Assembly (NCBI RefSeq): GCF_913055165.1
Contig: NZ_CAJXJS010000021.1
Span: 1 to 63,020 of the forward strand
From: an uncultured Devosia sp.
GTDB lineage: Bacteria > Pseudomonadota > Alphaproteobacteria > Rhizobiales > Devosiaceae
DNA length: 63,020 nucleotides
Direction of reading: 5' to 3'
Shown in pieces: positions 1,731 to 33,227 of the stretch (within the stretch, counting starts at the first letter, position 1; each line of letters opens with the position of its first letter). The notes beneath the pieces are model-generated. The model was not told where the DNA came from and searched no databases. It worked only from the letters and a program-made list of their open reading frames with translations. Both the position numbers and the translations under genes were made by a program.

Positions 1731-1733
1731 GCC

Positions 1734-17150: not shown

Positions 17151-17233
17151 CGTCGGTGGAATTCCAAAAGTTGGCCGAGCGATCCGGCAGACAGTCATTT
17201 CAAAAAAGACTTAGCAACAGGGGGTACAATTAA

Positions 17234-18937
17234 ATGACGATCAAGAATCGGCTTTTCCATGCGGGCTGGATTATCATCCTGCTTGGTGCGCTACTGGCGC
17301 ATTTCATCCAAACATCGGGCGGGATCACTATTCGAGATCTGCGTTTCCACGGCACCAATGGCCAGGTTCTCAGTGGCCTGCTTTATGTGCCGCCTGGGGT
17401 TTCAGCCGAAAACAAGGCCCCGGCCATCCTCGCCGTTCACGGCTACTTCAACAGTCGCGAAACCCAGGGCGGCTTTGCCATTGAACTTGCCCGCCGCGGC
17501 TATGTGGTGCTGGCGCTCGATCAGGGCGGTCACGGCTATTCGGACCCGCCGGCCTTCGCCAACGGCTTTGGCGGCCCTGGAGGCCTCGCCTATTTGCGGT
17601 CGCTCGATTTCGTCGACACGGACAATATCGGTCTTGAAGGCCACTCCATGGGTGGTTGGACCGTGCTGGCCGCGGCGGCGGCCATGCCGGACGCCTATAA
17701 GGCCGTGGTGCTGCAGGGGTCGAGCACCGGTGCTCCCTTCGCCAGGGAGGCCGACACGTCATGGCCGCGCAACCTGGCCGTCGTCTTCTCCAAGTTCGAC
17801 GAATTTTCCGGGTTCATGTGGGGCGTCGAGCGTGCCCGGGACATGCCCGCGAGCACGAAGCTGCAGACAGCTTTCGGCACCACCGAGCCCGTCGTGGTTG
17901 GTCAGATCTATGGTTCCATCGACGATGGCACCGCCCGCATCCTGCATCAGCCCAACACCACCCATCCGGGCAACCATTTTTCGCCAGAGGCTATCGGCGA
18001 CGCCATTGCCTGGTTCGACCAGACCCTGCAAGGCGCCGATCCGCTGCCGCCCGGCGACCAGATCTGGCTCTGGAAGGAAATCGGCACGCTCATAGCGCTG
18101 GTGGGTTTTGTCGTCCTGCTGGCTGGCGCCTTCGATATGCTGCTCAGGACACAGGCCTTTGCGCATCTGCGCAAGGAGCCGGGCGGCGCTGCTTATGATG
18201 GGCGAAACGGCAAGTGGTGGCTGCATTTTGCTCTGGCCACACTCATCCCGGTGCTGACCTATTACCCATTCTTCTACTGGGCAACCGTGGTCTTCCCGGA
18301 ATCGGCAATCCTGCCGCAGAGCTTCACCAGCCAGATCGCCCTGTGGGCCGTGCTGAATGCGCTCATCATCGTTGCGCTGGGCTTGGTCTTCAAGGGTAAC
18401 AAGGTCGAGGGACGAGGTGATATCTGGGGCTCTGTACTGATTGCCCTGGCAACCGTCGGCATCGGCTATATCGCTGTGGCAGCAACGGACTTCCTGTTCA
18501 AGGTGGACTTCCGCTTCTGGGTCGTTGCGCTCAAGCCCTTTGACCTGGTGCGGGCCAAGATCGCGCTGGTCTATCTGGTGCCATTCACGGTCTACTTCGT
18601 GCTGGCCCTGCGCGGCCTGCACATGGGCCTCTCGGTTCGCACTGATGGCCGCGTGGCACAATATGTCTCCAACATCGCGGTGATGATTGTCGGCTTCATC
18701 CTGTTCCTCGGTTTCCAGTATCTGACGCTGCTGTTTACCGGCCACCTGTTCAGCATGAATGAGTCCCTGACCACGGTGATCGGCATGCAGTTCGTGCCGC
18801 TTCTGGCGATTGTCGCCTTCCTGTCGACCTTCGCCTGGCGGCGGACAGGCAGTTACCTGCCGGGCGCGTTCATCAATGCGCTGTTCGTCACCTGGTACAT
18901 TGTGAGCAGTCAGGCGATTCAGTTCGCGGCAAGCTGA
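17234..18937 (+). CDS. Membrane-bound alpha/beta hydrolase with C-terminal multi-helix domain
   Basis: A 567-residue protein in three parts. A signal-anchor helix lies at residues about 8-26 (AGWIIILLGALLAHFI). An alpha/beta hydrolase domain (about 35-270) carries the oxyanion HGYF, ALDQGGHGYSD, nucleophile elbow GHSMGG (Ser about 140) and a late His in TTHPGNHFS. It is followed by about eight predicted transmembrane helices (285-567). The hydrolase part would face the periplasm if the anchor is N-in. It belongs to the dienelactone-hydrolase/acyl-peptidase-like branch; substrate unknown. It follows the Liv-type operon and could be read from it. A GGGGG site precedes the ATG. Confidence 0.8.
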   Translation: MTIKNRLFHAGWIIILLGALLAHFIQTSGGITIRDLRFHGTNGQVLSGLLYVPPGVSAENKAPAILAVHGYFNSRETQGGFAIELARRGYVVLALDQGGHGYSDPPAFANGFGGPGGLAYLRSLDFVDTDNIGLEGHSMGGWTVLAAAAAMPDAYKAVVLQGSSTGAPFAREADTSWPRNLAVVFSKFDEFSGFMWGVERARDMPASTKLQTAFGTTEPVVVGQIYGSIDDGTARILHQPNTTHPGNHFSPEAIGDAIAWFDQTLQGADPLPPGDQIWLWKEIGTLIALVGFVVLLAGAFDMLLRTQAFAHLRKEPGGAAYDGRNGKWWLHFALATLIPVLTYYPFFYWATVVFPESAILPQSFTSQIALWAVLNALIIVALGLVFKGNKVEGRGDIWGSVLIALATVGIGYIAVAATDFLFKVDFRFWVVALKPFDLVRAKIALVYLVPFTVYFVLALRGLHMGLSVRTDGRVAQYVSNIAVMIVGFILFLGFQYLTLLFTGHLFSMNESLTTVIGMQFVPLLAIVAFLSTFAWRRTGSYLPGAFINALFVTWYIVSSQAIQFAAS

Positions 18938-19574: not shown

Positions 19575-21236
19575 TCAAGACAGGCGGATGTACGGAATGT
19601 TCTTCCGCGCGATTTCCTCGTGGCTCTCGTCATAGCCAGCGTCGGCATAGCGCATGACACCCAGTGCCGTGTCGTTGGTCAGGGCATGTGACAGGCGTTC
19701 GGCGCCTTCATCACTGCCATCGGCCACTACTGTCACACCAGCCGAGGTCATGTAGCCGGCATAGCCGCCGCCACCGGAATGCACCACGACCAGATCGGCC
19801 ATGGATGAGCAGAGCAGCATGGCATCCAGGATCGGCCAATCGGCAATGGCGTCCGAACCATCCTTCATCCGTTCGGTCATGATATTGGGATGGGCCATCG
19901 CGCCGGCATCGAGGTGATCGCGGCTGAAGGTTACCGGCCCCGCCAGCTCACCCTTGTGCACCATGTCGTTGACCGCCAATGCCAGTTGTGTGCGTTCGCC
20001 ATGACCCAGCCAGGCGATGCGGGCCGGCAGACCCTCGAACGGCACATGGCGCCGCGCCAGCTGTATCCAGTTGGTGACGATCCTGTTGTCCGGGAACATC
20101 TGCAGCAGCCGGTCGTCGATCTTGCGGATATCCTCCGGGTCGCCGGATTGCGCCATCCAGCGGAAAGGACCAATGGCCCGGGCAAACAGCGGGCGGAGAT
20201 AGGCCTCGGTGAAAATGGGAATGTCGAAGGCGTTCTTCACCCCGCCATCGTGGGCATGGGTGCGGATGAGATTGCCATTGTCGAACACTTCGGCGCCGCG
20301 CCTCTGGAATTCGAGCATGGCGATGACATGGTCGACAATCGAGGCCCGGCTGGCCGCCATCAGCTCCTCTGGGTTGGTCTCTCGCAGTTCCCGCACCTTG
20401 TCGAGCGCATAGCCCTTCGGAACATAGCCATAGACCAGGTCATGGGCGGAGGTCTGATCGGTCACGATGTCGGGCGTGATCCCGCGCCGGACGATTTCGG
20501 GGTAGATATCGGCCGCGTTTCCGACGAGGCCGATGGAGGTCGGGCGTTTTTCGCGAACGGCGGCCGCGATCATCTCGAGCGCTGTGTCGAGATCGGGCGC
20601 GATCTCTTCGAGATAGCCGATTTCCTTGCGTTTGCGGGCGCGTTCCGGGTCGATGTCGACGCAGAGGATGGCGGCGCCGGCCATGCGACCCGCCAGCGGC
20701 TGCGCCCCGCCCATGCCGCCAAGGCCGGCCGTCAGGATGAAGCGGCCCGCCAGATCGCCATCGAACCGGTTTTCGGCAATGCGCATGAAGATTTCATAGG
20801 TGCCCTGGATGACCCCCTGGCTGCCGATATATTGCCAGGCGCCGGCGGTCAGGCCTCCCCAGCAGATCAGCCCCTTGCGTTCGAGCTCGTAGAACACCTC
20901 GGCCCTGGCCCATTGGCCGACGAGATTGCAATTGGCCATGATGACCAGGGGCGCTTTAGCGTGAGTCTTGAGGAGGCCGATCGGCTTGCCCGACTGGATG
21001 ATGAGGGTCTGGTCCTCATCCATCGTCTTGAGTGCCGAGACGATGGCGTCATGGCTGGCCCAGTTGCGGGCCGCCTTGCCGAGCGCGGCATAGACCACGA
21101 GGTTGTCCGGGTCTTCACCGACGCTGAGCACATTCTCGAGCAGGCGCAGCAAAGCCTCCTGCCGCCAGCCACGGGTGCGCAGCTCGTTGCCGCCGGGAAT
21201 GGGAAAGCGCGGATGACGGGGATTTGCGGTCGGCAT
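19575..21236 (-). CDS. Urocanase-family hydratase, probable thiourocanate hydratase
   Basis: A 553-residue NAD-dependent hydratase of the urocanase fold; the length matches HutU. Family hallmarks are present: QSGKPIGLLKTH, GSQGVIQGTYE, the Rossmann segment TAGLGGMGGAQPLA and VTDQTSAHD. Active-site stretches differ from standard HutU: the usual HHGGGVGMGFSQHSG is HSGGGGYAGYMTSAG (residues about 486-500), ARICWVG is ARIAWLG, so the conserved Cys is Ala, and TAGSWIYIGSQG is TAGAWQYIGSQG. It is the last gene of an operon with a MIO-less lyase, a DUF917 protein, hydantoinase and carbamoylase and no hutI. I therefore infer that it hydrates thiourocanate to 3-(5-oxo-2-thioxoimidazolidin-4-yl)propionate. 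Plain urocanate hydratase is the alternative. Confidence 0.8.
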   Translation of the reverse strand: MPTANPRHPRFPIPGGNELRTRGWRQEALLRLLENVLSVGEDPDNLVVYAALGKAARNWASHDAIVSALKTMDEDQTLIIQSGKPIGLLKTHAKAPLVIMANCNLVGQWARAEVFYELERKGLICWGGLTAGAWQYIGSQGVIQGTYEIFMRIAENRFDGDLAGRFILTAGLGGMGGAQPLAGRMAGAAILCVDIDPERARKRKEIGYLEEIAPDLDTALEMIAAAVREKRPTSIGLVGNAADIYPEIVRRGITPDIVTDQTSAHDLVYGYVPKGYALDKVRELRETNPEELMAASRASIVDHVIAMLEFQRRGAEVFDNGNLIRTHAHDGGVKNAFDIPIFTEAYLRPLFARAIGPFRWMAQSGDPEDIRKIDDRLLQMFPDNRIVTNWIQLARRHVPFEGLPARIAWLGHGERTQLALAVNDMVHKGELAGPVTFSRDHLDAGAMAHPNIMTERMKDGSDAIADWPILDAMLLCSSMADLVVVHSGGGGYAGYMTSAGVTVVADGSDEGAERLSHALTNDTALGVMRYADAGYDESHEEIARKNIPYIRLS

Positions 21237-21239
21237 GGC

Positions 21240-22328
21240 TTAGCCCTCCCTGGACAGGGCATAGGTGGCCAGGTCGATGCCCAAGGTCTTTTCGACATGC
21301 GGATAGACGGCCGGGTCGAGCACGCTTGATGACAGCGGAATGATCGATTTGGGCACGTGCAGCACGAATATCTGCATGCCCTCCTCCAGCTGACCGACGC
21401 TCAGGGGGTCGCCCTCGGTCGACAGCGTGGTGATCACGTCCGGGAAAGTGGCCTGCCGCTGGCCGTCCTTATCATCAACCGCCATGTATTCGTTCATCAC
21501 ATGCAGCACGGCGCCTTTTTCCAGGGTCACCGTGCCGACATCGAAAGCTTCGCTGGTATAGGTCACGGCCTTCCGGCTGACCTTGCCTTCGACAAGGATC
21601 GCTCCGCCGGTCGTCTTGACGATGGTGTCGATGACCGCGCTGCCGCCCTTACCCTCTGCGGCCAGGATCGCTTCGCCGAGTTTGAGTGCCAGCGATATGC
21701 CGCCCAGCGCCGCGTGTTGACGGACATAGCTGGCGCGCACCGGGTTGCGGCAGGAGGCAATGAAGCCGCCGGACATGTCCGAGGCCGTGCGCAGGATCGG
21801 TGAGACCTTGGCCGTGGCGCCGCGGGTCACCAGTTCGATATAACGGTTCTCGTCGCGATTCCCGCCCACGGCCGTCTGGATCATCGGTTCGGGTGACCCG
21901 GCCAGGCCGATCGAGCCCATGTCGCCAGTGGGGTGGGCGCGGACATCCCCTACCGCGTCGACCACCTTGGTTCCGAGCACCGCCGAGGGCAGCCAGCCGT
22001 TGAGCGTCGAAGACTTGCCATTCTGCCCCACCATCAGGCCGGCCAGTTTTTCCCCCAGCGCATCCTCCAGCAATTGTACGGCCTTGATGTAGTCGACACC
22101 ACGCATCTCCCAGGGCGTCGTCGAGGCAGGAGCACCGATGGCCGCGGCGGTAGCGACCCAGTCATTGTCGGCCAGCTCCTCGATCGAAACCAGTTCCGGC
22201 TTGCCGATGGAGACTGCGGCATGGCCAAGCATGCGGCCATGATCGGCCCAACCGCCTCCGCCTGCCGCATAGACCGAGCCGCCCTTGACGGCCGCTTCGA
22301 CGTCCTTCTCGGTGAGGATGCGTCCCAT
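21240..22328 (-). CDS. DUF917 / S-methyl-thiohydantoin desulfurase family protein, probable thiohydantoin desulfurase
   Basis: A 362-residue protein of the DUF917 family, now named for S-methyl thiohydantoin desulfurase. The glycine-rich N-terminus (SVYAAGGGGWADHGRML) is typical of the family, and the C-terminal part resembles the hydantoinase-linked domain. ATG 22328 follows GGAGACAACATA and shares one base with the stop of the carbamoylase gene (TAATG). In the proposed pathway it replaces S by O on the thiohydantoin-propionate ring, giving hydantoin-5-propionate and sulfide. The position between the hydratase and hydantoin-opening genes fits exactly, but activity is inferred. Confidence 0.8.
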   Translation of the reverse strand: MGRILTEKDVEAAVKGGSVYAAGGGGWADHGRMLGHAAVSIGKPELVSIEELADNDWVATAAAIGAPASTTPWEMRGVDYIKAVQLLEDALGEKLAGLMVGQNGKSSTLNGWLPSAVLGTKVVDAVGDVRAHPTGDMGSIGLAGSPEPMIQTAVGGNRDENRYIELVTRGATAKVSPILRTASDMSGGFIASCRNPVRASYVRQHAALGGISLALKLGEAILAAEGKGGSAVIDTIVKTTGGAILVEGKVSRKAVTYTSEAFDVGTVTLEKGAVLHVMNEYMAVDDKDGQRQATFPDVITTLSTEGDPLSVGQLEEGMQIFVLHVPKSIIPLSSSVLDPAVYPHVEKTLGIDLATYALSREG

Positions 22329-23581
22329 TATGTTGTCTCCTGCAGGTCGTGATCGAGCCGCCGAACTGCTTCGAGCAGCACGGCAGCGCCCAGCGCGATA
22401 TCTTCGGCGCTGGCGGATTCTTCGGGGGTGTGGCTGCGACCCTCGACGCAGGGTACGAAGATCATCGCGGCCTTGGTCGCCCGCGCCATCCACGCGGTGT
22501 CGTGCCCCGCACCGGACGCCATGCGCCGATGCCGAGCGCCTGTAACGTCGCAGGCAATGTCGAGCGCCGCCAAAACGTCGGCGTCGCATGGGGTCGGCGG
22601 ATTGTCGGAGATGGTGCGCGGCTCATGTACCGAAACGCCGGTCTGGGCTGCAATTCCAGCTACGCCTTCGCGCAGTTCGGTGAGGAAATGCTCCATGTCC
22701 CGGCGCCGCTCGGCGCGGGCATCGATCAGCATGGTGACGCGGGCGGGCACGACATTGGCGGCATTGGGCTCCATTCGAAATTCGCCGACAGTGGCCGCGA
22801 AGTGAAAATCGCCACTGGCCAGATCGGTGGCGAAACGCTCCACGGCCAGAGCGATCCAGGCTGCGGCCGAGAGCGCATCCTTGCGACTGCCCATGGGCGT
22901 GGTCCCGGCGTGATCGGCCCTGCCCTCCACCACGATCTCGATCCGGGTGATGCCGGCAATGGCGGTGACCACGCCGATGTCGAGCTTTTCGTTTTCAAGC
23001 ACAGGTCCCTGCTCGATATGGAGTTCGAGGAATGCTGCGATGTCATTGCGCCGCAGCGAGGCGGCTGGATTGCCGCCGACCTCGGCGATGGCGTCGGCAA
23101 GCGTAAGGCCCTCGCTTTTTCGGGTCAGCCACTCGTCGGGCCGGGTGCCGGTGATGCCTCGGCTGCCGATGCAGGAGACACCGAAAATCGAAACCTCCTC
23201 GGCCAGGAAGTCGATGATTTCGAGGTCATGGTCGAGTTCGATGTTGCGGTCGGCCAGCGCCCGCACAACCTCAAGGGCCGCCGAGACACCGGCAATGCCG
23301 TCATAGCGCCCGCCATCCGGCACGGTATCGGAATGCGAGCCCAGCATGATCGTGCCGAGGCCGGGTTTCCGGCCGACGCGGGAGCCGACCAGATTGCCGG
23401 CGGCATCGACATGAACCTTGAGGCCGGCGGCCTCGAAGCGCTGCGAAAGCCATTCACGGCCCTTGAGAAACATGGGCGTGAAGGCGCGGCGGGTATAAGG
23501 GTGATCCGGCTCGGTGATTGCGGCGAGGGCCGAGATGTCCTCGCTTATGCGAACGGCGCTGGTGGGCAGGTTGCGGGTCAT
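22328..23581 (-). CDS. M20-family N-carbamoyl-L-amino acid hydrolase (probable N-carbamoyl-L-glutamate hydrolase)
   Basis: A 417-residue binuclear metal amidohydrolase of the HyuC/allantoate amidohydrolase group. Metal ligands are visible: His in GSHSDTVPDGG (about residue 82), Asp in GRYDG, the Glu pair in DFLAEEVS, His in LELHIEQGPVLE and His in SGAGHDTAWMA. Residues about 210-330 form the dimerization domain (GRADHAGTTPM). The reaction is N-carbamoyl-amino acid to amino acid, CO2 and ammonia. Its ATG overlaps the hydantoinase stop by four bases, so the two ring-opening steps are coupled. N-carbamoylglutamate as substrate is inferred from the neighbours. Confidence 0.88.
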   Translation of the reverse strand: MTRNLPTSAVRISEDISALAAITEPDHPYTRRAFTPMFLKGREWLSQRFEAAGLKVHVDAAGNLVGSRVGRKPGLGTIMLGSHSDTVPDGGRYDGIAGVSAALEVVRALADRNIELDHDLEIIDFLAEEVSIFGVSCIGSRGITGTRPDEWLTRKSEGLTLADAIAEVGGNPAASLRRNDIAAFLELHIEQGPVLENEKLDIGVVTAIAGITRIEIVVEGRADHAGTTPMGSRKDALSAAAWIALAVERFATDLASGDFHFAATVGEFRMEPNAANVVPARVTMLIDARAERRRDMEHFLTELREGVAGIAAQTGVSVHEPRTISDNPPTPCDADVLAALDIACDVTGARHRRMASGAGHDTAWMARATKAAMIFVPCVEGRSHTPEESASAEDIALGAAVLLEAVRRLDHDLQETT

Positions 23582-24939
23582 GCGCGCACCTCGGGTCGAA
23601 CGAAGCGACCAATGCCCGGCTGCGCCAAAACGTCTTTGCCATCAAAAGCTTGCCGCCCGCGGAGCCAGGTGCCGGCGACGGTCCAGGGCAGTTCGATGCC
23701 GTTATAGGGGCTCCAGCCGACAACGTTGTGGCCGCTGCGGGCGGCGTCATAGACCAGCGGGCGATCGACCAGAACGGTGATGTCGGCGTCCTTGCCGACC
23801 TCGAGCGCGCCTTTGGTTTGGTCGAGGCGGAAGTGGCGGGCGGGGTTGGCAGACATCAGCTGCGCGGCCCAGGTCAGGGCCAGGCCCCGGTCCAGGAGTC
23901 CCTTAATGAACAGCGGCACCATGACTTCCAGGCCCGGTACGCCCGAGGCATTGGCGAGCATGTCCGGATTGGTCTTGCGATCTTCGGACCAGCTGACATG
24001 ATCGGTCGAGATCAGCGTGACATTGCCAGCCGCGACATGCTGCCAGAGCTTCTCGACTTCTGCGCGCGGCCGGATCGGCGGGTTGATCTTGGCCTTGCCG
24101 CCGAGCCGGGCGACGTCGTTTTCCTCGTCCAGGGTCAGATAGTGGATGCAGCATTCGATGGTGGCCGCATAGCCCTGGTCGCGATAGAGGCGCGCGATCT
24201 CGTAGCCCCGTGCTAGGGAGCAATGCACGACATGGGCGGGACAGCCGGTCTGCGCGCCGGTCTCGTAGATCTGCAGCGACGCCAGAAGTTCGGTCAGCGG
24301 CGGGCGGCTCAGGCCGTGCGCACGATAGTCGGTGATGCCGGCAGCCTTCACTTTGGCCATGGCGGCGCGGACCATTTCATCGTCTTCGTTGTGAACACCT
24401 GCCGTCAGTCCGGTCCTGGCCACGGCCGCAAAGCACTCTTCGAGCAAAGCAGGCGGAATGCGCGGAAATCGGATTGGGTCGGTACCGAAGGTGGAAAATT
24501 TGAAGGCCGCAACACCTGCCTCAGCCTGCTCGGCAATGCGGGCCGCGCCCTCCTCGGGATTGATGGTGCCATAAAGGGCGAAATCCACCCGCGCCTGCGG
24601 GCTGGCATGCTCGACCTTGATGCGCACGGCCTCTGCAGAACAGACCAGATTGCCCTCGTCATAGGGCATGTCGACAATGGTGGTGACGCCACCGGCGGCG
24701 GCCGAGCGGGTCGACCAGATGAAATCTTCCTGGTTCTTTTGGCTCAGCGAATGGGTCTGTGCATCAATGGCGCCAGGCAAGATCATGGCCGTGCCCAGAT
24801 CGTGGCGCTCAGCGGCCTGCGGCCCCGCGCCCTCGCCAACCAGCGCAATCTTGCCATTGTGCACCGCCACATGGCCGCGCTCGATGACCCGGTCAGGAAG
24901 CACCACGGTGCCGGTCAGGCTGAGATCGAAATCGGACAT
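23578..24939 (-). CDS. Hydantoinase/dihydroorotase-family cyclic amidohydrolase (probable hydantoin-5-propionate hydrolase)
   Basis: A 453-residue TIM-barrel amidohydrolase. The N-terminal small domain is followed by PGAIDAQTHSLSQ, where the first metal His of D-x-H-x-H is Gln, as in some dihydroorotases. Later ligands include the carbamylated-Lys region AAFKFSTFG, the His in VVHCSLARGYE and TLISTDHVSWSED with the catalytic Asp. It opens a cyclic imide (hydantoin) to the carbamoyl amino acid. Within this operon the fitting substrate is hydantoin-5-propionate. It lies 18 bases downstream of the importer permease gene and overlaps the carbamoylase gene. Confidence 0.85.
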   Translation of the reverse strand: MSDFDLSLTGTVVLPDRVIERGHVAVHNGKIALVGEGAGPQAAERHDLGTAMILPGAIDAQTHSLSQKNQEDFIWSTRSAAAGGVTTIVDMPYDEGNLVCSAEAVRIKVEHASPQARVDFALYGTINPEEGAARIAEQAEAGVAAFKFSTFGTDPIRFPRIPPALLEECFAAVARTGLTAGVHNEDDEMVRAAMAKVKAAGITDYRAHGLSRPPLTELLASLQIYETGAQTGCPAHVVHCSLARGYEIARLYRDQGYAATIECCIHYLTLDEENDVARLGGKAKINPPIRPRAEVEKLWQHVAAGNVTLISTDHVSWSEDRKTNPDMLANASGVPGLEVMVPLFIKGLLDRGLALTWAAQLMSANPARHFRLDQTKGALEVGKDADITVLVDRPLVYDAARSGHNVVGWSPYNGIELPWTVAGTWLRGRQAFDGKDVLAQPGIGRFVRPEVRA

Positions 24940-24957
24940 TGTTCAGGTCCTTGGTTA

Positions 24958-25710
24958 TCAGGCGTTGGCGCGCGCGCCCTGCCCGGTCCGGCGGGTCAGG
25001 GCCCGCTCGATGGCCGAGAGGCCGTCATAGATGAGCACGGCGAGCGCCCCGACGATGAGGCCGCCTTGCAGCACGAATGCGGTATTGCTCGAGAGCAGCC
25101 CGGCGATGATGACTTCGCCCAGCGTCCGGGCGGCCACGGTGGAACCGATGGTTGCCGTGGCCAGGGAAATGACCGTGGAGAGGCGCACGCCGGCGAGAAT
25201 GACGGGCAGCGCCAATGGCAATTCGACACGGATGAGGCGCTGGCTGCCGGTCATGCCCATGCCACGGGCGGCTTCGGTTACCGAAGGGGGCAGACCTGTA
25301 AGGCCGGTCAGCGTGTTTTCGAAGATCGGCAACAAGCCGTACAGAAACAGGGCCACCAGGGTCGGCGCGGTGCCGAAGCCGAGCATGGGCACGGCCAATG
25401 CCAGCACGGCCACCGGCGGAAAGGTCTGTCCGACATTAGCAAGGCTTCGCGACAGCGGCAGGAACTCTGCACCAAAGGGCCGGGTCACCAATATGGCCAG
25501 ACCCACGGCTACCGCAGTGGCCAGCGTGGTGGCGATGAGGACAATCAGCAAGTGGTTGAGGGTCAGATCGAGCAGACTGCCCTGGTTGTAGATCACCGGC
25601 TGGTTGTTCTTGGCCAGGGGTTCGAAGAGAAAGGCGAAGGTCTCCGGGCTGACCAGAAACACGACCAACAGGGCCAGGACGAGCAGGCGAATGACAAGGC
25701 CAATGCTCAT
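24958..25710 (-). CDS. Betaine-type ABC transporter permease (OpuC/YehY-like)
   Basis: A 250-residue permease with five to six helices. The loop motif EAARGMGMTGSQRLIRVELP (residues about 140-159) is the ATPase-coupling EAA loop typical of glycine betaine/carnitine/choline importers. It overlaps the ATPase gene by four bases. Together with the larger permease at 26636-27826 it forms the membrane part of a YehZYXW-like importer. The operon context suggests a trimethylammonium substrate such as ergothioneine. Confidence 0.9.
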   Translation of the reverse strand: MSIGLVIRLLVLALLVVFLVSPETFAFLFEPLAKNNQPVIYNQGSLLDLTLNHLLIVLIATTLATAVAVGLAILVTRPFGAEFLPLSRSLANVGQTFPPVAVLALAVPMLGFGTAPTLVALFLYGLLPIFENTLTGLTGLPPSVTEAARGMGMTGSQRLIRVELPLALPVILAGVRLSTVISLATATIGSTVAARTLGEVIIAGLLSSNTAFVLQGGLIVGALAVLIYDGLSAIERALTRRTGQGARANA

Positions 25711-26639
25711 GACGGCCTCGCTGCAGCTCTTGCCAGGTCAGCGCGGCTGACCTGCCCAATCAACTGGCCATTGTCGCTGACCGGCAGGGCATCGCGTCCT
25801 GACCAGAGGCATTCGGCATAGGCCTCGCGCAGGCTGGCGCTGGCTTGTATAGGGGCACCCTTGGCTTCCCCCGGCTGGACCAATGATGCGACCCGGGCCA
25901 AAGACAACAGCCGGAACGGCCTGTCGCCGCCAATCAGCTCGGCGACGAAATCGGTTGCGGGGTTGGCCAGAATATCCTGGGGCGTCGCATATTGCAGCAG
26001 TTTGCCACCATCCATGACGGCAATACGGCTGCCGAGGTGAATGGCCTCCTCCATGTCGTGGGTCACCAGAACGATCGTGGTGTTGAATCGTTTCTGGATG
26101 GCGAGGAGATCCTCCTGCGCCTTGGCCCGGATGACCGGGTCGAGCGCGCCGAAAGGCTCGTCCATCAAGAGGATATTGGGCTCGGCAGCCAGGGCCCGTG
26201 CTACCCCGACGCGCTGCTGCTGGCCGCCGGAGAGTTCATTGGGCATGCGATCGCGGAACTGGGCCGGATCAAGCTGGAACAGGTCCAGCAATTCGTCGAC
26301 ACGCGCCGAAATCCGTGCCGCGTCCCACCCCAGCAGATGCGGCACGGTGCCGATGTTCTGGCCCACCGTGCGGTGCGGGAAAAGGCCGTGACCCTGAATG
26401 GCATAGCCGATGCGGCGGCGCAGTTCGTGCGCCGGAACGCTTCGTGTGTCCTGCCCGTCGATCAGGACCTTGCCCGAAGTGGGCTCGACCAGCCGGTTGA
26501 TCATGCGCAAAAGAGTGGTCTTGCCCGAGCCCGAGGTACCAACAATGGCACAGACATCGCCTGCCTCGACCGTCAAGGATACCTTGTCGACGACGGTGGT
26601 CTGGCCATAGACCTTGGTCAGCTCCTGGATATCGATCAT
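25707..26639 (-). CDS. Betaine-type ABC transporter ATPase (OpuCA/YehX-like)
   Basis: A 310-residue ATPase: Walker A GTSGSGKTT, Q-loop region YAIQGHGLFPH, signature LSGGQQQR and Walker B ILLMDEPFGALD. The C-terminal tail (about 270-310) keeps one CBS-like repeat (DALPVSDNGQLIGQVSRADL), as in quaternary-amine importers, where CBS repeats act as osmotic or nucleotide sensors. Overlaps of four bases with both permease genes show tight coupling. Confidence 0.93.
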   Translation of the reverse strand: MIDIQELTKVYGQTTVVDKVSLTVEAGDVCAIVGTSGSGKTTLLRMINRLVEPTSGKVLIDGQDTRSVPAHELRRRIGYAIQGHGLFPHRTVGQNIGTVPHLLGWDAARISARVDELLDLFQLDPAQFRDRMPNELSGGQQQRVGVARALAAEPNILLMDEPFGALDPVIRAKAQEDLLAIQKRFNTTIVLVTHDMEEAIHLGSRIAVMDGGKLLQYATPQDILANPATDFVAELIGGDRPFRLLSLARVASLVQPGEAKGAPIQASASLREAYAECLWSGRDALPVSDNGQLIGQVSRADLARAAARPS

Positions 26640-27826
26640 CGGGCACGCTCCTTGGTGCTGACCATTTCGACAAAGGCATCGAGGATGACGGCCGCCGCGA
26701 AGGCCAGCGCCACCGTTGGCACGGCGCCGAGCAGCACCAGATCCATCGCCGTCTGGCCGATGCCCTGAAAGACGAAGACGCCAAAACCGCCGCCGCCGAT
26801 CAGCGCAGCGATGGTGGCAAGGCCGATGTTCTGCACCAGCACAATGCGGATGCCGGTCAGAATGACCGGAAAGGCCAGGGGCAATTCCACCGAGACGAGT
26901 CGTTGCCGGCCGGTCATGCCCATGCCGCGGGCCGCGTCATTGGCAGCTTCGGGCACATTGACCAGGCCCACCACCGTGTTGGACACGATGGGCAGCAGCG
27001 AATAGGCAAACAGGGCCACCATGGCCGGCGCCGTGCCGATGCCCGAAATACCGATGGCGGAGGCACCGGGTATATTGGCCGCGACCCAGGCCAGAGGCGC
27101 AATCAGCAGGCCGAACAAGGCGATGGAGGGGATGGTCTGGATGATGTTGAGCGTGTTCAACACGGCCGCCCGCAGGCCTCTCACCCGGTAGAGGAGGATG
27201 CCGAGCGGCACGCCCGCAACGATGGCGAGGCCAACAGAACCAAAGGCCAGCAGCAGATGCGTTCGCGACTCTGCCCAGAAGGCGGGGGCCCTGTTGGCAT
27301 ATTCCTTGAGGATCGAGAGATCGTTCCAGGCGCCGGTCCAGAGCAGCAGGCCAAGTGCCCCCGCCACCAGAGCGAGAATGCCGATGCGCTGCCAGGGTCC
27401 GAAGCGCAACCTGGCCAGAGCATCGGTGACCATCAGCGCGAAAGCGAAGAGCAGCAGCCAGAATCCGGCGCCGGGAGACACGCGCGCAAAGGTGTTGTCG
27501 GGTGGCGTCAGATAGCTTGCGGAGCGACCGATCAACACCGCCAGGGCGGTGAGCAGAACGAAGCCCGTGATGAGCTTGATGCGGGTTCGGTCGCGCAGCA
27601 AGGCGATGACGATGCCGGCAAGGACCAGCAGGCCCAGTACGAGAGCTGGCAGCGTATCGAGCGCGGCCGGGATCGGCAGCCCCTCGCCCAGCACGATGCG
27701 ATTGGCCCGAAACACGGAAAAGGGCAGAAATGCGCCGGCCACGGCGATGAGGGCGATCAGGACCCCAAGCTTGTCCAAGGCCAAGCGGAGCGAACGGACA
27801 TTGCTGGCGATATCGGCGGTAGTCAT
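26636..27826 (-). CDS. Betaine-type ABC transporter permease, large (YehW-like)
   Basis: A 396-residue permease. The N-terminal half (about 1-175) adds several extra helices, as in the longer partner of YehW/YehY pairs. The C-terminal half is the transport domain with EAANDAARGMGMTGRQRL as the ATPase-coupling loop and SLLPIVSNTVVGL before it. ATG 27826 has a GAGGGGG site; an in-frame upstream start would add a short unlikely leader. The substrate is inferred, with its neighbours, to be ergothioneine or a related betaine. Confidence 0.9.
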   Translation of the reverse strand: MTTADIASNVRSLRLALDKLGVLIALIAVAGAFLPFSVFRANRIVLGEGLPIPAALDTLPALVLGLLVLAGIVIALLRDRTRIKLITGFVLLTALAVLIGRSASYLTPPDNTFARVSPGAGFWLLLFAFALMVTDALARLRFGPWQRIGILALVAGALGLLLWTGAWNDLSILKEYANRAPAFWAESRTHLLLAFGSVGLAIVAGVPLGILLYRVRGLRAAVLNTLNIIQTIPSIALFGLLIAPLAWVAANIPGASAIGISGIGTAPAMVALFAYSLLPIVSNTVVGLVNVPEAANDAARGMGMTGRQRLVSVELPLAFPVILTGIRIVLVQNIGLATIAALIGGGGFGVFVFQGIGQTAMDLVLLGAVPTVALAFAAAVILDAFVEMVSTKERAR

Positions 27827-27896
27827 GGCGCCCCCTCGCTGCCCCTTTGGGCGATGTGCCAGCGCGACCACCTCCTGGTCGGCCGATCCGGGAGAC

Positions 27897-27945
27897 GGCG
27901 CGCGCCAGGCGCGCCATCCCTTCTTATCGGTGCCTCATGCGAGGC
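27897..27945 (-). promoter_or_regulatory. Two hairpins between binding-protein and permease genes
   Basis: GGCGCGC/GCGCGCC (27897-27915, 5-base loop) and GCCTC/GAGGC (27932-27945, ATGC loop) lie in the 132-base gap directly after the binding-protein stop on the minus strand. As in the Liv-type operon, they probably stabilize the binding-protein mRNA and dampen downstream expression. Confidence 0.45.
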
Positions 27946-27958
27946 AAGGCCCGGTACC

Positions 27959-28870
27959 TCAGCTCAGAAAGCCGTTATTGGTGAGGAAGTCCGTGGCCAC
28001 GGCGGAAGCGGCTTCACCGCCCACCTGCACCCGGCCGTTGAGCTCCTGCAGGGTCTCCAGCGTCAGCGCTTCGAAGACCGGCTTCAGCAGTTCCTCGATC
28101 TGCGGATATTCGTTCAGCACCTCTTCCCGGATGATTGGGGCCGGCTGATAGACCGGCTGCACGCCCTTGTCGTCCTCAAGTACCTTCAGACCGGAGGGGG
28201 CGATGCCGCCGTCGGTGCCATAGACCATGGCGGCATTGGCGCCGTTGGTTCCCTGGGCGGCCGCCGCGATGGTGGCTGCCGTGTCGCCGCCCGACAGGGT
28301 GATCAGCTGATCGGGGGAGAGGGTAAACCCATAGACTTCCTGGAACTTGGGCAGGGCGGCCGGTGAGTTGACGAACTCTGCGGACGCGGCCAGCTTCACT
28401 TCACCGCCACCGGCTACATATTCGCCGAACTGGCTGAAGGTATCGAGACCGTTGGCGTCGGCGAGGTCCTGGCGAATGGCCACTGCCCAGGTGTTGTTGG
28501 CCGGCGACGGGGTCAGCCAGACGATGTTGTTGGCTTCGTAGTCGAGCTTCTTGGCTTCCTCATAGGCGGACTGGGCATTGTTCCAGAGCGGATCGTCAGC
28601 GCGCTCGAAGAAGAAGGCGGCATTGCCCGTATATTCGGGATAGATGTCGATTTCGCCCGCGGTGATGGCCTCGCGCACGATGGGCGTGCCGCCGAGCTGG
28701 ATGCGGTCTTCGACCGGAATGTCGTTGGCTTCAAGCACCTGCTTGATGATATTGCCCAGGACCCCGCCTTCGGTGTCGATCTTGGACGACACCACCACCT
28801 GCGCCTGCGCGGCGGTGATGGTCAAGGCAAGTGCGGTTGCCGCACCCACAAGCATTTTCGTTAGGCGCAT
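27959..28870 (-). CDS. Betaine-type ABC solute-binding protein (OsmF/YehZ-like), candidate ergothioneine-binding protein
   Basis: A 303-residue periplasmic protein with a clear Sec signal (residues 1-23, cleavage after AQA). The mature start VVVSSKIDTEGGVLGNII is the OsmF/YehZ pattern, and EIDIYPEYTGNA is a conserved quaternary-amine-binding-protein motif with ligand-cage aromatics nearby. ATG 28870 follows GGAGACAGTC. The related EgtU domain of EgtUV importers in Streptococcus and Helicobacter binds ergothioneine in the same fold. Here the gene is embedded between a lyase and the permeases of a putative ergothioneine operon, so that ligand is the best inference. Glycine betaine or another betaine is possible. 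Confidence 0.87.
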   Translation of the reverse strand: MRLTKMLVGAATALALTITAAQAQVVVSSKIDTEGGVLGNIIKQVLEANDIPVEDRIQLGGTPIVREAITAGEIDIYPEYTGNAAFFFERADDPLWNNAQSAYEEAKKLDYEANNIVWLTPSPANNTWAVAIRQDLADANGLDTFSQFGEYVAGGGEVKLAASAEFVNSPAALPKFQEVYGFTLSPDQLITLSGGDTAATIAAAAQGTNGANAAMVYGTDGGIAPSGLKVLEDDKGVQPVYQPAPIIREEVLNEYPQIEELLKPVFEALTLETLQELNGRVQVGGEAASAVATDFLTNNGFLS

Positions 28871-28907
28871 GACTGTCTCCTTTGTGAGCCGGATTGGCCG
28901 GCTGTCC

Positions 28908-30506
28908 CTACCCAAGTGCACTGTCAGTATTTGACAGGGGCCGTTCCGCCCCGGTCTGCGGGCCGAGCGCAAAAAACTCGTCCAATTCCATAATGGCGGA
29001 GTGCGCAATCAGTTCAGCGACAAAGCCATCGGAGGCCAAAGCGGCCTCCACCGCCTCGACTTCAGCCGATAGCGGCCTGTCATGCTCGTAGAAGGCGGCG
29101 TGTTGCCGGACGAGGTTGTAGACCATGCCCGGAACATTGCCCGGCCGGTCGCCGGAAATATCCATGGCCTGGGCCGCCAGCAGTCCCTCAAGGGCGGCAA
29201 GGCGACGCAGAGCACCGGCCTGGCGCTCGAACCGCTCGACCACCAGCGGCAGAAACGCAGCCTCGTCTTCGAGCCCATTGGCCACCACCAGGGATTGGGC
29301 CGAGATGGCGTTGGAGAGCGAGAGGCAGCGGACGAAAAGTTCGCCGGCCAGCTTGATGATGGGGCCGAAGCCGGTGGCGATGGCACCGGGTGCTACCAGA
29401 TTGACGGGCAGATTGCGCCGGCCCCCATTGCCGAGCAGCACGCAGCGATTGAACGAATTCCTGGCAACATGGGCGAGTGCCAGCTGCGCCGTCTGCAGAA
29501 AGACAGTGACATCGAGCGGCAGCGAGCCGCCGGAGGTAAGCACCTGGCCGCCAGCGACCACCGGATTGTCATCGGTGCGTCCGGTTGCGGCCAAGACGGT
29601 TCGCCCGGCCACAACGAGGCTCTCGAACGCGGTGGCGAAAACCTGGCTCATCATGCGGATCGAGAGCGGGTCCTGCACATGGGTGCCCATGGGCCAGTCC
29701 CAGCCCATGGCGTTGAAATAGAGCCAGGCACCGATACCGGCTTCGCGTTCGGTGCCGACATGGGCCACCGCTTTCCAGGGATCGCGCGATGCCCCCAGGG
29801 CGCCGGCCGTGGTCAGGCCGGTGGCCAGCATCACGCGCACTGCACTTGCGGCCTGCCGGATGGCGCGCATGGCGGCCGCATAGCCCACAGCATTGGTGGA
29901 CACCGAGGCGAGGCTATCGCGCGGCGCAAGCTTGAAGGGCCTTAGTCCGGCCCGGGCCATGGCCTCCGCGGCAGGCAGGCGCTCGCCGCGATGATAGGCT
30001 TCGCCCACGCCAGTGAGGACAGCGCCGATCTGCCCCATCAGGCCAATATCGGCGCAGCCGATGGAGCCGGTGCGGCGGACCACGGGGATAACGTCGGCTG
30101 CAAGCAGTTTCTGATAGGCCTCGACCAGATCGGGCGTGCAGCCGACGCGGCCGGTCAAAGCCATGTTGACGCGGATCGCCAAGGCGTTGCGGATGACTTC
30201 GAGCGGAAAGGCGCTGCCGGTGCCGAAATGATGCGCGCGGACGAGGCCGGTGCTGAAAGCTTCCAGATCCTCCTCGGACCAGGACACGTCCTTCATGGCC
30301 CCGACGCCGGTCGTGGCCCCATAGACCGGCTGGCCGGCATTGATGGTGTCTTCCACAACCTGGCGGGCATGCTGCACGCGTTCGAGTGCAGCCTTGTTGG
30401 CGACGATGCTGGCCTGGCGCGCGCCGATGCGGACGAAGTCGGCGAAGCTGAGGGGCTTACCCTTAAGCTCGATCGTTGCCGGGGGGATGTTCGCCTGGGC
30501 GTTCAC
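28908..30506 (-). CDS. Aromatic-ammonia-lyase-family enzyme lacking the MIO triad, probable ergothionase (ergothioneine trimethylamine-lyase)
   Basis: About 532 residues with the histidine ammonia-lyase fold. PVYGATTGVG (equivalent of the catalytic-Tyr loop YGxNTGFG) and the FHNSFNR-like RNSFNRC region are recognisable. The Ala-Ser-Gly that self-cyclizes to MIO in HutH (GSVGASGDLAPL) reads GSIGCADIGLMG here (Cys151-Ala152-Asp153), and the later LNGTQ is VSTNA. Without MIO it cannot be a normal ammonia-lyase. Ergothionases of Treponema and Burkholderia are known MIO-less members that eliminate trimethylamine from ergothioneine to give thiourocanate. It is the first gene of the operon. GTG 30506 was chosen for an AGGAG upstream; ATGs at 30527 and 30557 are alternatives. 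Confidence 0.82.
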   Translation of the reverse strand: MNAQANIPPATIELKGKPLSFADFVRIGARQASIVANKAALERVQHARQVVEDTINAGQPVYGATTGVGAMKDVSWSEEDLEAFSTGLVRAHHFGTGSAFPLEVIRNALAIRVNMALTGRVGCTPDLVEAYQKLLAADVIPVVRRTGSIGCADIGLMGQIGAVLTGVGEAYHRGERLPAAEAMARAGLRPFKLAPRDSLASVSTNAVGYAAAMRAIRQAASAVRVMLATGLTTAGALGASRDPWKAVAHVGTEREAGIGAWLYFNAMGWDWPMGTHVQDPLSIRMMSQVFATAFESLVVAGRTVLAATGRTDDNPVVAGGQVLTSGGSLPLDVTVFLQTAQLALAHVARNSFNRCVLLGNGGRRNLPVNLVAPGAIATGFGPIIKLAGELFVRCLSLSNAISAQSLVVANGLEDEAAFLPLVVERFERQAGALRRLAALEGLLAAQAMDISGDRPGNVPGMVYNLVRQHAAFYEHDRPLSAEVEAVEAALASDGFVAELIAHSAIMELDEFFALGPQTGAERPLSNTDSALG

Positions 30507-30556
30507 GTCTGTGGGGTCTCCTTGCATCGGTGACGCTATTGGAAATTTCTCGACCA

Positions 30557-30568
30557 TGGGATATCCCA
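30557..30568. promoter_or_regulatory. Perfect palindrome in the lyase/LysR divergent region
   Basis: TGGGATATCCCA is a perfect 12-bp palindrome between the divergent lyase and LysR genes. If the lyase starts at 30506, it lies in a 119-base non-coding promoter region and is a good candidate operator for the tandem-HTH LysR protein. If the lyase starts at the ATG at 30557, it would lie at the start codon. Confidence 0.4.
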
Positions 30569-30625
30569 AAAGCTGAACAGGCTATGTTCCGTCTGTGAGC
30601 GCCGGCAAGACAGAGAGGCAGCGAC

Positions 30626-31786
30626 ATGGACAGCTCGACCCTGGTCCTGGTCGATGCCATTCTCAAGGCGGGTAGTCTGCGGGCCGCTGCCCGTATCGCC
30701 GCACGGCCGGCGGCCAGCGTATCGGCCGCACTGGATCGGCTCGAAGCGAGCCTCTCGACCACCCTGTGCCAGCGGGCCGGGTCAGGGTTGATCCTGACCC
30801 TGGAGGCCAACCGCTTGGCCCCCGAGATCGCAGGGGCCGCTGCATTGGCGCGTCGTCTCTATGCCGCGCAGGCCGATCCTTTCGCATCAGGCGTGCGACT
30901 GCAAGCGCTGGGACGATTTGTTGAAGTGGCCGAGCGCGGCAGTATTCGCCAGGCGGCGCGGGCGATGATGCTCGGGCAACCACAATTGTCCCGGCAATTG
31001 GCACATCTGGAGACGGCACTGGGGCACCGGCTGATCGAGCGCGGAACGGACGGGATCAGCCTGACGCAGGCGGGGCAATCGGTTCGGGAGACCAGCGAGG
31101 CCCTGTTGCAGGTGTGGGGGCAGATTTCCCGGTCGTCCGAGGATCGCTTCCGGCGGACACAGGCGACGGTGCGGCTCGGCTCAATCATGCCGCTGGGCTA
31201 TGAGAGCGAGATCGCTCGCCAATTGGCCAGGCTGACGGCGGGCTGGATGGCGACGCATCCCAGGCAGCCGCTCTTCGTCAGCTCCACCACGGCCGAGGAA
31301 CTGCTGCGCGGACTCAAGAGCGGGGTGTTTGACGTCGCCCTGCTCGATACCGAGCAATTGCCTGCCGATCTCGAGGGCGCCCGGATCGTGACATCGCCAT
31401 TGGCCATTGTGGGTGCGGGCGGCAACGACATTGCACAGGCGCTGTCGTCCCGGCCGATTGCCCTGCCCAGCCCGAGAAGCGGACTGCGCCTGCGGATCGA
31501 CACCCTGCTGGACATGACGTTCGAGCCGCAGCAGCGCGACCGGCTGCAATTGCTCGAGATCGACTCCATTCCGGTCATCCTCAATCTGGTCTTGCACCAT
31601 GGCTTCGTGTCGGTGTTGCCTCTGGCCTCGGTGGCCAGCATCCGCCCGGAACTGCACAACATTGCGCTGCCGCCCGATTTCGACATGCATTATTGGCTGT
31701 GCTGGCCCAAATCTGCCGGGCGGCCGGATGCCGGCATGGCGGTCCTCGATGCCATCCGACGTGCAACCACACCGTCCCCGGTCTAG
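30626..31786 (+). CDS. LysR-family regulator with two tandem HTH domains
   Basis: A 386-residue protein, about 80 longer than ordinary LysR regulators. Residues about 4-60 form one LysR-like HTH (LVLVDAILKAGSLRAAARIA then ASVSAALDRLE). Residues about 90-150 form a second, more canonical one (LQALGRFVEVAERGSIRQAA then QPQLSRQLAHLETALG). The remaining 230 residues are the effector-binding fold. The ATG follows GAGAGG. It is transcribed divergently from the lyase operon and followed 64 bases later by a disulfide reductase gene, so it most likely regulates both. The effector is probably ergothioneine, thiourocanate or a hydantoin intermediate (inference). Confidence 0.85.
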   Translation: MDSSTLVLVDAILKAGSLRAAARIAARPAASVSAALDRLEASLSTTLCQRAGSGLILTLEANRLAPEIAGAAALARRLYAAQADPFASGVRLQALGRFVEVAERGSIRQAARAMMLGQPQLSRQLAHLETALGHRLIERGTDGISLTQAGQSVRETSEALLQVWGQISRSSEDRFRRTQATVRLGSIMPLGYESEIARQLARLTAGWMATHPRQPLFVSSTTAEELLRGLKSGVFDVALLDTEQLPADLEGARIVTSPLAIVGAGGNDIAQALSSRPIALPSPRSGLRLRIDTLLDMTFEPQQRDRLQLLEIDSIPVILNLVLHHGFVSVLPLASVASIRPELHNIALPPDFDMHYWLCWPKSAGRPDAGMAVLDAIRRATTPSPV

Positions 31787-31850
31787 TTGTCCCGGGGAGG
31801 GTTGCGCCGGCGCGGTGCGGCCATCGTTCGGACAAGGGAGACATCGCGTC

Positions 31851-33227
31851 ATGGATCGACATTTCGATGCCGTCATCATCGGCGCCGGCCAGGCGGGGCC
31901 GCCGCTGGCCGCGCGACTGGCTGGGGCTGGATTCGAGGTTGCGCTTGTGGAGCGGGCCCAGGTCGGCGGAACCTGCGTTAATACCGGCTGCACGCCGACC
32001 AAGGCGATGGTGGCCAGCGCCAAAATCGCGCATTCGGTTCGCCAGGCCAGCGAGCATGGCATTCACGTGTCGCGCGCGCCGATCGTCGACTTCCCCTTCA
32101 TTCTCGGTCGAGCCCGCACGATCAGCGCCAATTCGCGCAATGGTCTGGAGACGTGGCTCGGCGGCATGGACAAGCTGACGCTCCTACGCGGCCATGCGCG
32201 GTTCGAGGGGCCCCAGCGCTTGCGGATCGGCGACGACATGATTTCGGCCGAACGTATCTTTCTCAATGTCGGGGCCCGGGCGAGTATCCCCGATCTCCCA
32301 GGGCTCGACGAAATCGAGCCGCTCACCAATTCCAGCATTCTGACCCTCGATACCCTGCCGGAGCACCTTGTGATCATCGGGGGAAGCTATATCGGCCTTG
32401 AATTCGCACAGATGTTCCGGCGGTTCGGCTCGCGCGTCACTATCATCGAAAAGGGGGATCGCCTTGCCAAACACGAAGACGCAGAGGTCTCCGACTGCAT
32501 TCGCGACATCCTCGAACTGGAAGGCATAACCATCCGCACAAGTGCGGAGTGTGTGCGGTTCTCAAGCAATGGTCACGGACCCGTAGTCTCGGTCAACTGC
32601 AGCGAGGGGGAACCGGATATTTCCTGCTCCCACGTGCTGCTCGCGGTCGGCCGAACGCCCAATACGGGTGATCTCGGGCTCGATCACGCCGGGGTGGCGC
32701 TGGATGAGCATGGCTATGTGAGCGTCAATGACCGGCTCGAGACCAATGTACCGGGCGTCTGGGCGCTGGGCGATTGCAATGGCCGCGGGGCCTTCACGCA
32801 CACCTCCTACAATGACCATGAGGTGGTGGCAGGCAACCTGCTGGAGGGTGAGGACCGGAAGATCTCCGAGCGGGTTTCCACCTATGCGCTCTACATCGAC
32901 CCACCTTTGGGCCGGGCTGGTCTCTCCGAGGCGGACGCGATCGCCAAGGGACACAAGGTACTGGTCGGAAAGCGGCCGATGACCCGGGTCAGCCGCGCGG
33001 TCGAGAAGGGCGAGATCCAGGGCCTGATGAAGGTGGTGGTGGACGCAGACTCAAGAGCGATCCTGGGCGGCGCTATCCTGGGGCCAGGTGGCGATGAGGC
33101 GATCCATACCATTGTCGACATGATGCAGATGGGCGCCTCGATCGACGCGCTTCAGCGGACAATGCATATTCACCCGACCGTGGCCGAGCTGGTGCCAACT
33201 ATCGCCGGAGCCCTTGAGGAGGTCTAA
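31851..33227 (+). CDS. FAD/NAD(P)-dependent disulfide oxidoreductase (class I, mercuric-reductase-like)
   Basis: A 458-residue flavoenzyme: FAD-binding GAGQAGPPLAARLA at residues 12-25, redox disulfide GGTCVNTGCTPTK (about 40-52), NAD(P)-binding IIGGSYIGLEFAQ (about 175), second FAD motif VWALGDCNGRGAFTH, and the C-terminal dimer-interface His-Glu pair in HIHPTVAEL. The extra C-terminal Cys pair of MerA is absent, so mercury reduction is unlikely. It shares a transcription unit with the tandem-HTH LysR gene and lies next to the proposed ergothioneine operon. A role in reducing a disulfide form of ergothioneine or of a sulfur product is a testable guess. ATG 31851 follows GGGAG. Confidence 0.88.
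   Translation: MDRHFDAVIIGAGQAGPPLAARLAGAGFEVALVERAQVGGTCVNTGCTPTKAMVASAKIAHSVRQASEHGIHVSRAPIVDFPFILGRARTISANSRNGLETWLGGMDKLTLLRGHARFEGPQRLRIGDDMISAERIFLNVGARASIPDLPGLDEIEPLTNSSILTLDTLPEHLVIIGGSYIGLEFAQMFRRFGSRVTIIEKGDRLAKHEDAEVSDCIRDILELEGITIRTSAECVRFSSNGHGPVVSVNCSEGEPDISCSHVLLAVGRTPNTGDLGLDHAGVALDEHGYVSVNDRLETNVPGVWALGDCNGRGAFTHTSYNDHEVVAGNLLEGEDRKISERVSTYALYIDPPLGRAGLSEADAIAKGHKVLVGKRPMTRVSRAVEKGEIQGLMKVVVDADSRAILGGAILGPGGDEAIHTIVDMMQMGASIDALQRTMHIHPTVAELVPTIAGALEEV

Follow-up and report, generated by a model that had tools for sequence, protein, structure and literature searches.

The Locus Probably Encodes the Enzymes of Ergothioneine Breakdown

Ergothioneine, an antioxidant of mushrooms, is a widespread dietary thiol whose breakdown by bacteria yields trimethylamine. 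Contig NZ_CAJXJS010000021.1 of an uncultured Devosia sp. carries a leftward operon that begins with an ammonia-lyase homolog and faces a divergent LysR-type regulator gene, which raises the question of whether this locus serves the use of ergothioneine, of one of its derivatives, or of histidine. Throughout the text, the window is the whole stretch of 63,020 nt analyzed, L-numbers denote individual loci or stretches, and G-numbers individual genomes. A preliminary description, made from the sequence alone, had proposed a complete system for ergothioneine import, degradation and control. Judging from its sequence, the locus is very probably an ergothioneine-catabolic operon with an importer and a divergent LysR switch. 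Enzymes and control of the proposed system stood up to analysis, the dedicated importer did so in part, and a disulfide reductase dropped out. Reading frames and family profile searches placed all the named genes where they had been described. Since four of the proteins pass the curated NCBIfam cut-offs for ergothioneine use, the enzyme route is curated knowledge and not new, and we regard the locus as a newly found and well-supported case of a catabolic route that is already known.

These four proteins, all encoded on the − strand, are the thiourocanate hydratase (19575..21236; NF058530, 1050 bits, cut-off 930), the thiohydantoin desulfurase of the S-Me-THD-like/DUF917 family (21240..22328; NF058529, 601 bits, cut-off 440), the hydantoin-5-propionate amidohydrolase ErtD (23578..24939; NF058538, 783 bits, cut-off 600) and the N-carbamoyl-glutamate amidohydrolase ErtE (22328..23581; NF058540, 595 bits, cut-off 520), so that each assignment to the Ert pathway is made above its threshold. 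The ErtE protein scores higher, at 653 bits, with a general Zn hydrolase model. A literature search for "thiourocanate hydratase" found no paper. We infer each of the reactions, and with them the fate of trimethylamine: the lyase would convert ergothioneine into trimethylamine and thiourocanate, which the four enzymes of curated families would then take through thiohydantoin-propionate, hydantoin-propionate and N-carbamoylglutamate to glutamate, with H2S, CO2 and ammonia likely released along the route.

Could the substrate of the operon instead be an oxidized or modified ergothioneine, for example the sulfonate or the S-methyl derivative? PMC13405746 refers to the reconstitution of a bacterial ergothioneine sulfonate pathway, which it cites for A. 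radiobacter, and the S-methyl models are the next-best matches of both hydratase and desulfurase. However, these models remain far below their cut-offs (753 bits for the hydratase, cut-off 880; 284 bits for the desulfurase, cut-off 450), whereas the thio models pass, and a dedicated thiohydantoin desulfurase would fit a thione; no sulfonate-specific model was seen, and the sulfonate form lies outside this comparison. The S-methyl pathway was rejected on the NCBIfam cut-offs, and we consider a modified substrate unlikely in general.

An ordinary hut cluster with diverged HutH and HutU would also show homology to both of these families, and the window hydratase does pass the hutU model (706 bits, cut-off 375). 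Nevertheless, the thiourocanate model exceeds hutU by 344 bits on this protein. In a tree of 48 rows and 45 different sequences, PDB entry 7ned, which we take to be a thiourocanate hydratase and whose PDB title says urocanate hydratase, groups with the ert hydratases in a clade (support 100/99) that stands apart from 25 HutU-type rows (100/99) and has a motif of its own, HSGGGGYAGxMTS; a very long row, L191, attaches beside this clade with unsure placement. The divergent urocanase thus falls outside true HutU, a point that had been set beforehand as decisive for its identity. Moreover, the lyase lacks the residues of the 4-methylideneimidazole-5-one (MIO) group, and a hydantoinase route stands in place of HutI/HutG. 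The whole draft genome, whose 94% completeness tempers the count, holds a single PF00221 gene and a single PF01175 gene, in line with the earlier claim that the ordinary entry into histidine use is lacking; HutI and HutG were not part of that search. No combination of a MIO-bearing HutH with a HutU-clade urocanase was therefore found. The hut explanation, which we rejected on MIO loss and the trees, is in our view highly improbable, and the assignment of the enzymes to ergothioneine use agrees with curated cut-offs, MIO loss, trees and locus conservation.

The First Enzyme Is a MIO-Less Lyase Related to Ergothionase

The first gene of the operon (28908..30506, − strand) encodes a PF00221 protein (274 bits) predicted to be an ergothionase. 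Its best PDB match is the T. denticola ergothionase 6s7j, at 182 bits vs 128 bits for histidine ammonia-lyase (HAL). We built an alignment of 21 rows, including 19 lyases (the window's and those of 18 chosen loci). At the position of the MIO triad HAL has Ala-Ser-Gly, and all 19 lyases have Cys-Ala and a deletion; T. denticola ergothionase likewise lacks one residue at this position, and a more distant lyase, that of L194, has Cys-Gly. The window lyase thus has the PF00221 fold without the MIO triad. It shares with T. denticola ergothionase the lysine of a GxxxK motif, presumably catalytic, which is absent from HAL. In a tree of 31 rows, several of them long branches (the T. denticola row included), the 15 ergothionase-like rows form one clade with support 97/96, present in 97% of the bootstrap trees, which argues for common ancestry with T. 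denticola ergothionase apart from HAL. Alignment and tree together bear out the earlier description of a MIO-less ammonia-lyase homolog. The AlphaFold model of the lyase (mean predicted local distance difference test, 82.7) also has 6s7j as its best fold match. The lyase has its nearest named relatives in Devosia and Pelagibacterium.

Some observations speak against a confident naming of this enzyme. No NCBIfam ergothionase model matched the window lyase, and in the fold search the separation between ergothionase 6s7j (E 3.0e-25) and HAL 1gkj (E 4.4e-24) was narrow. In addition, deletion of hutH slowed ergothioneine loss in Vibrio natriegens, according to PMC13276445, a result that calls for caution as HutH-type enzymes may also act on ergothioneine.

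The open frame of the lyase reaches 30569. Since the ATG at 30557 lies directly against the conserved operator described below, the probable start is the GTG at 30506, which is preceded by AAGGAGA at 30517-30523; the ATG is kept in close relatives and not in L051, L106 and L215. The CCAATAG between operator and lyase start, kept by eye in most of the Devosia gaps displayed, may be a −10 element.

The lyases of these loci are of two types with about 52% identity and the same partner enzymes: QDPLS/EDEA, to which the window lyase belongs, and HDPLS/EEEA, found in L056 and its relatives (Ensifer, Shinella, many Rhizobium). Separately, genome G086 has a family of MIO-less PF00221 paralogs with the motifs (A/P/S)G-E and QAPV(S/G)(W/Y/F)R (stretches L246, L247, L248 and L250), also observed in L253 of genome G037. 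Five of them stand in a row in L246 (1-17001), adjoining the diverged hydratase/desulfurase pair of L191 (51% and 35% identity); the genome has seven urocanase matches. These paralogs are perhaps a family of betaine lyases. In L190 (6562-8697), a MIO-bearing HAL-like lyase directly precedes a thiohydantoin desulfurase and a thiourocanate hydratase, so the thio route of this locus may start from a non-methylated thiohistidine.

The Enzyme Core Is Conserved Across Loci

A scan of genome contigs returned 401 stretches encoding desulfurase relatives. We retrieved the best 80; the remaining 321 went unchecked and may include other subfamilies. Seventy of the 80 are long loci of at least 20 kb, and all five enzymes recur at ≥35% identity in 67 of them. 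The exceptions are L079, without the two hydrolases nearby, and L094 and L105, without the lyase nearby. Such recurrence puts the five-enzyme grouping far beyond chance, and it also means that the pathway itself is known.

With the window genome included in each count, the desulfurase model was found above its cut-off in 15 of 25 genomes of the genus and in five of 289 genomes of the class (26 had weaker or equal matches), and a desulfurase search at E 1e-100 matched six of 398 genomes in a sample of the phylum. All six belong to the same order as the window; consequently, the Burkholderiales copies sought for a comparison with the cluster of Burkholderia sp. HME13 were not obtained. PF10017, the EgtD family, which also matches in E. 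coli and is therefore wider than EgtD, had no match in any of the 25 genus genomes, so members of the genus look like ergothioneine consumers rather than makers. The linked desulfurase and hydratase provide a second marker for ergothioneine breakdown.

Other settings of these genes were also observed. Relatives of the lyase (65%) and the hydratase (83%) lie about 5 kb apart in L294 (10001-11656), a 1.0 Mb Ochrobactrum plasmid record. The Sinorhizobium cluster L061 adjoins, at 583-3035, a carnitine 3-dehydrogenase gene (911 bits, cut-off 592) and an open reading frame resembling beta-keto acid cleavage enzymes, below cut-off, and has a small TfoX_N-domain protein (11111-11440) encoded between desulfurase and hydratase.

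A Tandem-HTH LysR Regulator Is Paired With a Conserved Operator

The regulator gene (30626..31786, + strand) encodes a LysR-type protein with two N-terminal HTH_1 domains of the helix-turn-helix (HTH) type, with 38.6 and 62.6 bits when the halves were scanned separately. A divergent LysR is present in 57 of the 70 long loci; its N-terminal half was found in 54 and the remainder in 57. Conservation of the upstream regions revealed an operator, GGGATATCCCAAAAGCTGAACA, in the divergent gap (30558..30579, strand not assigned). Of 87 upstream regions, each 450 bp long, 72 contain its core, ATATCCCA, whereas its frequency in these loci as a whole predicts 0.007 per region; in many Rhizobiaceae the sequence is TATATCCCA and the second operator half is weaker.

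Operator and regulator go together. Among 81 of the 87 regions (six loci were omitted for short upstream sequence), the core is present in 62 of 63 loci with an adjacent LysR vs 9 of 18 without. Six of these nine loci with a core but no adjacent LysR were tested for a distant homolog, and every one of the six genomes has one full-length homolog elsewhere (E ≤1e-30, 34-46% identity). No distant homolog at E ≤1e-30 was found in the five tested genomes without the core, namely four of the nine loci with neither core nor LysR, and L104, which has no core upstream. We then searched 16 genomes for the full operator pattern, and 13 have it. Of their 14 sites, 13 lie at the ert promoter and the remaining one is an additional site in G698; the window genome has exactly one. 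A reversed-pattern control gave one site, and the full pattern is missing from G262, which has a changed site, and from L052 and L054, picked as negatives. Since these loci were the source of the pattern, it is found at the ert promoter by construction, and the actual result is that it is rare elsewhere.

The pairing has its exceptions, which have to be set against it. L121, the only one among the 63, has an adjacent LysR and a one-base change in the core. L119 and L189 are counted among the nine loci with neither core nor adjacent LysR and stood outside the distant-homolog test; in L189, a LysR of 38% identity is co-directional with the lyase, and a palindrome, GGGATATCCC, precedes the hydantoinase. 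The earlier claim of a regulator in the cluster is nonetheless sustained by the pairing and by the genome-wide rarity of the operator. In our model, the LysR would bind the operator at 30558-30579, which adjoins the likely operon promoter, and would switch the operon on in the presence of ergothioneine or thiourocanate, both the inducer and the direction of control being predictions. Control by a tandem-HTH LysR and its operator is the part of the locus that looks new: no description of this regulator or of the importer was found in the literature searched (titles and abstract openings, with subscription papers mostly outside coverage). A defined pair of operator and regulator would make induction and uptake directly testable, and would suggest a substrate for OsmF-type importers, whose curated model carries a glycine betaine name.

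The Importer May Serve Ergothioneine Uptake

Four genes on the − strand encode an ATP-binding cassette (ABC) importer: an OsmF-type substrate-binding protein (27959..28870; NF049931, 497 bits, cut-off 400; signal peptide by eye), permease 1 (26636..27826; PF00528), an ATPase (25707..26639; PF00005; best NCBIfam match proV, 294 bits, below the cut-off of 327) and permease 2 (24958..25710; PF00528). The betaine-type importer that had been described is thus present in the operon, and it could bring ergothioneine, itself a betaine, into the cell. Its dedication to this substrate is a harder question, on which the earlier claim held only partly. In 11 of the 70 long loci the importer genes are found between those of the lyase and the desulfurase; L192 and L194, which come from other families of the class, also have them in this slot. 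Thirteen of the 15 genus genomes with the desulfurase carry a single OsmF, in each case on the contig of the desulfurase and within 7 kb of it.

For the binding site, we relied on the 13 ergothioneine contact residues of EgtUC given in PMC9732360; in our mapping the EgtUC row shows the expected letter at 13 of 13 positions. At these positions the window protein retains seven residues (K242, I243, T275, N339, E375, Y419 and Y443), and the cage residues are thus kept. Linked and stand-alone OsmF proteins have the same pattern apart from the T274 position, where Gly and Ala both occur in either set; the pattern thus does not single out the ert-linked ones.

The importer might then serve betaines or osmoprotectants in general and have only its place in the operon in common with the enzymes that use ergothioneine, and a number of results tell against a dedicated role. 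Four contacts are changed in the window protein (G244, T274, T296 and R379) and two aromatic residues are swapped (F293 to Tyr, Y341 to Trp), so the full EgtU contact set is lacking; E. coli OsmF, annotated for glycine betaine, is the closer match, with nine of 13 identical. In six of the 25 genus genomes the desulfurase is absent and OsmF stands alone in an operon of four genes, two of the 15 desulfurase genomes have no OsmF, and in a tree of 27 rows the linked and stand-alone proteins intermix. We chose 26 ert genomes that lack an importer in the operon: an OsmF above cut-off is encoded elsewhere in 11 of them, and the other 15 gave no OsmF match. A general importer, to which the OsmF annotation also points, is harder to reconcile with OsmF being the only one, and close to the desulfurase, in 13 of 13 genus genomes with both, with the shared slot in L192 and L194, and with its place beside the regulator in five Rhizobium genomes (see below). 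We rate the general importer as a serious possibility, if somewhat short of an even one. Because of the shared contact pattern and the 15 of 26 genomes without a match, ergothioneine uptake by the OsmF-type importer is plausible only, on these sequence comparisons.

An ert-specific OsmF lineage is not claimed, given the mixing of linked and stand-alone copies. The transporter near the Sinorhizobium cluster L061 is of the polyamine type, PotD/PotA-like, and is likewise not claimed as a substitute importer.

Regulator and Importer Are Paired Apart From the Enzymes in Five Rhizobium Genomes

In five Rhizobium genomes (L114, L116, L120, L123 and L125), the distant regulator (34-36% identity) is divergent to the gene of an OsmF binding protein (61-62%), and the whole importer is present in the three stretches read over 20 kb. 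The gap between both genes holds a variant operator, GGGATATCTTTTTTC-N2-GAACAC, in all five, and this site also adjoins the OsmF gene of the L119 genome. The loose operator pattern occurs about 0.18 times per 4 kb, and the form with GGGATATC plus GAACAC is far stricter. One loose match each was found near a weaker OsmF-like gene (L292) and among the six stand-alone Devosia OsmF stretches (L183), the latter without the GGGATATC plus GAACAC form. A sixth genome, G015, has the distant regulator without an importer beside it. What weakens the pairing is that nine other OsmF genes from ert genomes have no operator within 1.5 kb.

Although limited to one Rhizobium group, this pairing gives the strongest indication that a single regulon comprises regulator, importer and enzymes. 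A broader proposal is that of a regulon of unlinkable modules, in which the tandem-HTH LysR recognizes a dedicated operator (in Devosia and Rhizobium, GGGATATC-N8-YGAACA) and controls the catabolic operon as well as the OsmF importer, the alphaproteobacterial OsmF proteins being ergothioneine importers. We offer it tentatively, as an idea that could well be wrong; if true, OsmF importers would be kept for antioxidant uptake in species without the catabolic genes.

Layout of the Operon and Neighboring Genes

The operon comprises nine genes on the − strand, from about 30506 to 19575, in the order lyase, binding protein, permease 1, ATPase, permease 2, hydantoinase, carbamoylase, desulfurase and hydratase. 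The gaps from lyase to carbamoylase are 37, 132, −4, −4, 18 and −4 nt, 132 nt being the largest; carbamoylase and DUF917 genes join in a stop/start overlap, and 3 nt separate the latter from the hydratase gene. The DUF917 gene starts near 22328, not 22589 as first described. As to the description of a single locus, genes and operon were confirmed, and the regulator and the disulfide reductase were found on the + strand, divergent from the operon.

The FAD/NAD(P) disulfide oxidoreductase gene (31851..33227, + strand; NF004992, 738 bits) had been counted as part of the system. It is adjacent in three of the 80 loci (L047, L048 and L050), in none of the 51 loci where a divergent LysR is followed by 1.6 kb or more of sequence, and in three of 14 further genus stretches (L204, L207 and L209, among L203-L216). 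We therefore rejected it as a core component, and regard it as a lineage-specific neighbor probably outside the core, which may reduce ergothioneine disulfide in this small group. On the other side of the operon (14555-18937) lie ABC transporter genes of the branched-chain or urea type, below cut-offs, and an alpha/beta hydrolase-like open reading frame convergent with the operon; no link to the operon was seen.

Comparison With Known Systems

Burkholderia sp. HME13 reportedly degrades ergothioneine by an enzymatic route. As far as is known, this route and the NCBIfam Ert families involve the same enzyme set as the window locus, four of whose five enzymes pass the curated models. The window locus differs in being an alphaproteobacterial operon with a built-in OsmF importer and a tandem-HTH LysR, a comparison made at the level of the enzyme set. 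The S-methyl thiourocanate/thiohydantoin pathway (NF058531, NF058532) has a homologous hydratase and desulfurase, but both of its models stay below cut-off on the window proteins. The binding protein of S. pneumoniae EgtU is homologous, and its aromatic cage and Asn are also kept in the window protein; in contrast, EgtU fuses permease and binding domain, whereas the window has an OsmF-type importer of four separate genes, whose binding protein differs at four contacts and has two aromatic residues exchanged. Finally, T. denticola ergothionase 6s7j shares only about 26% identity with the window lyase, yet it is like it in being MIO-less, in its one-residue gap at the same place, in the lysine and in its clade.

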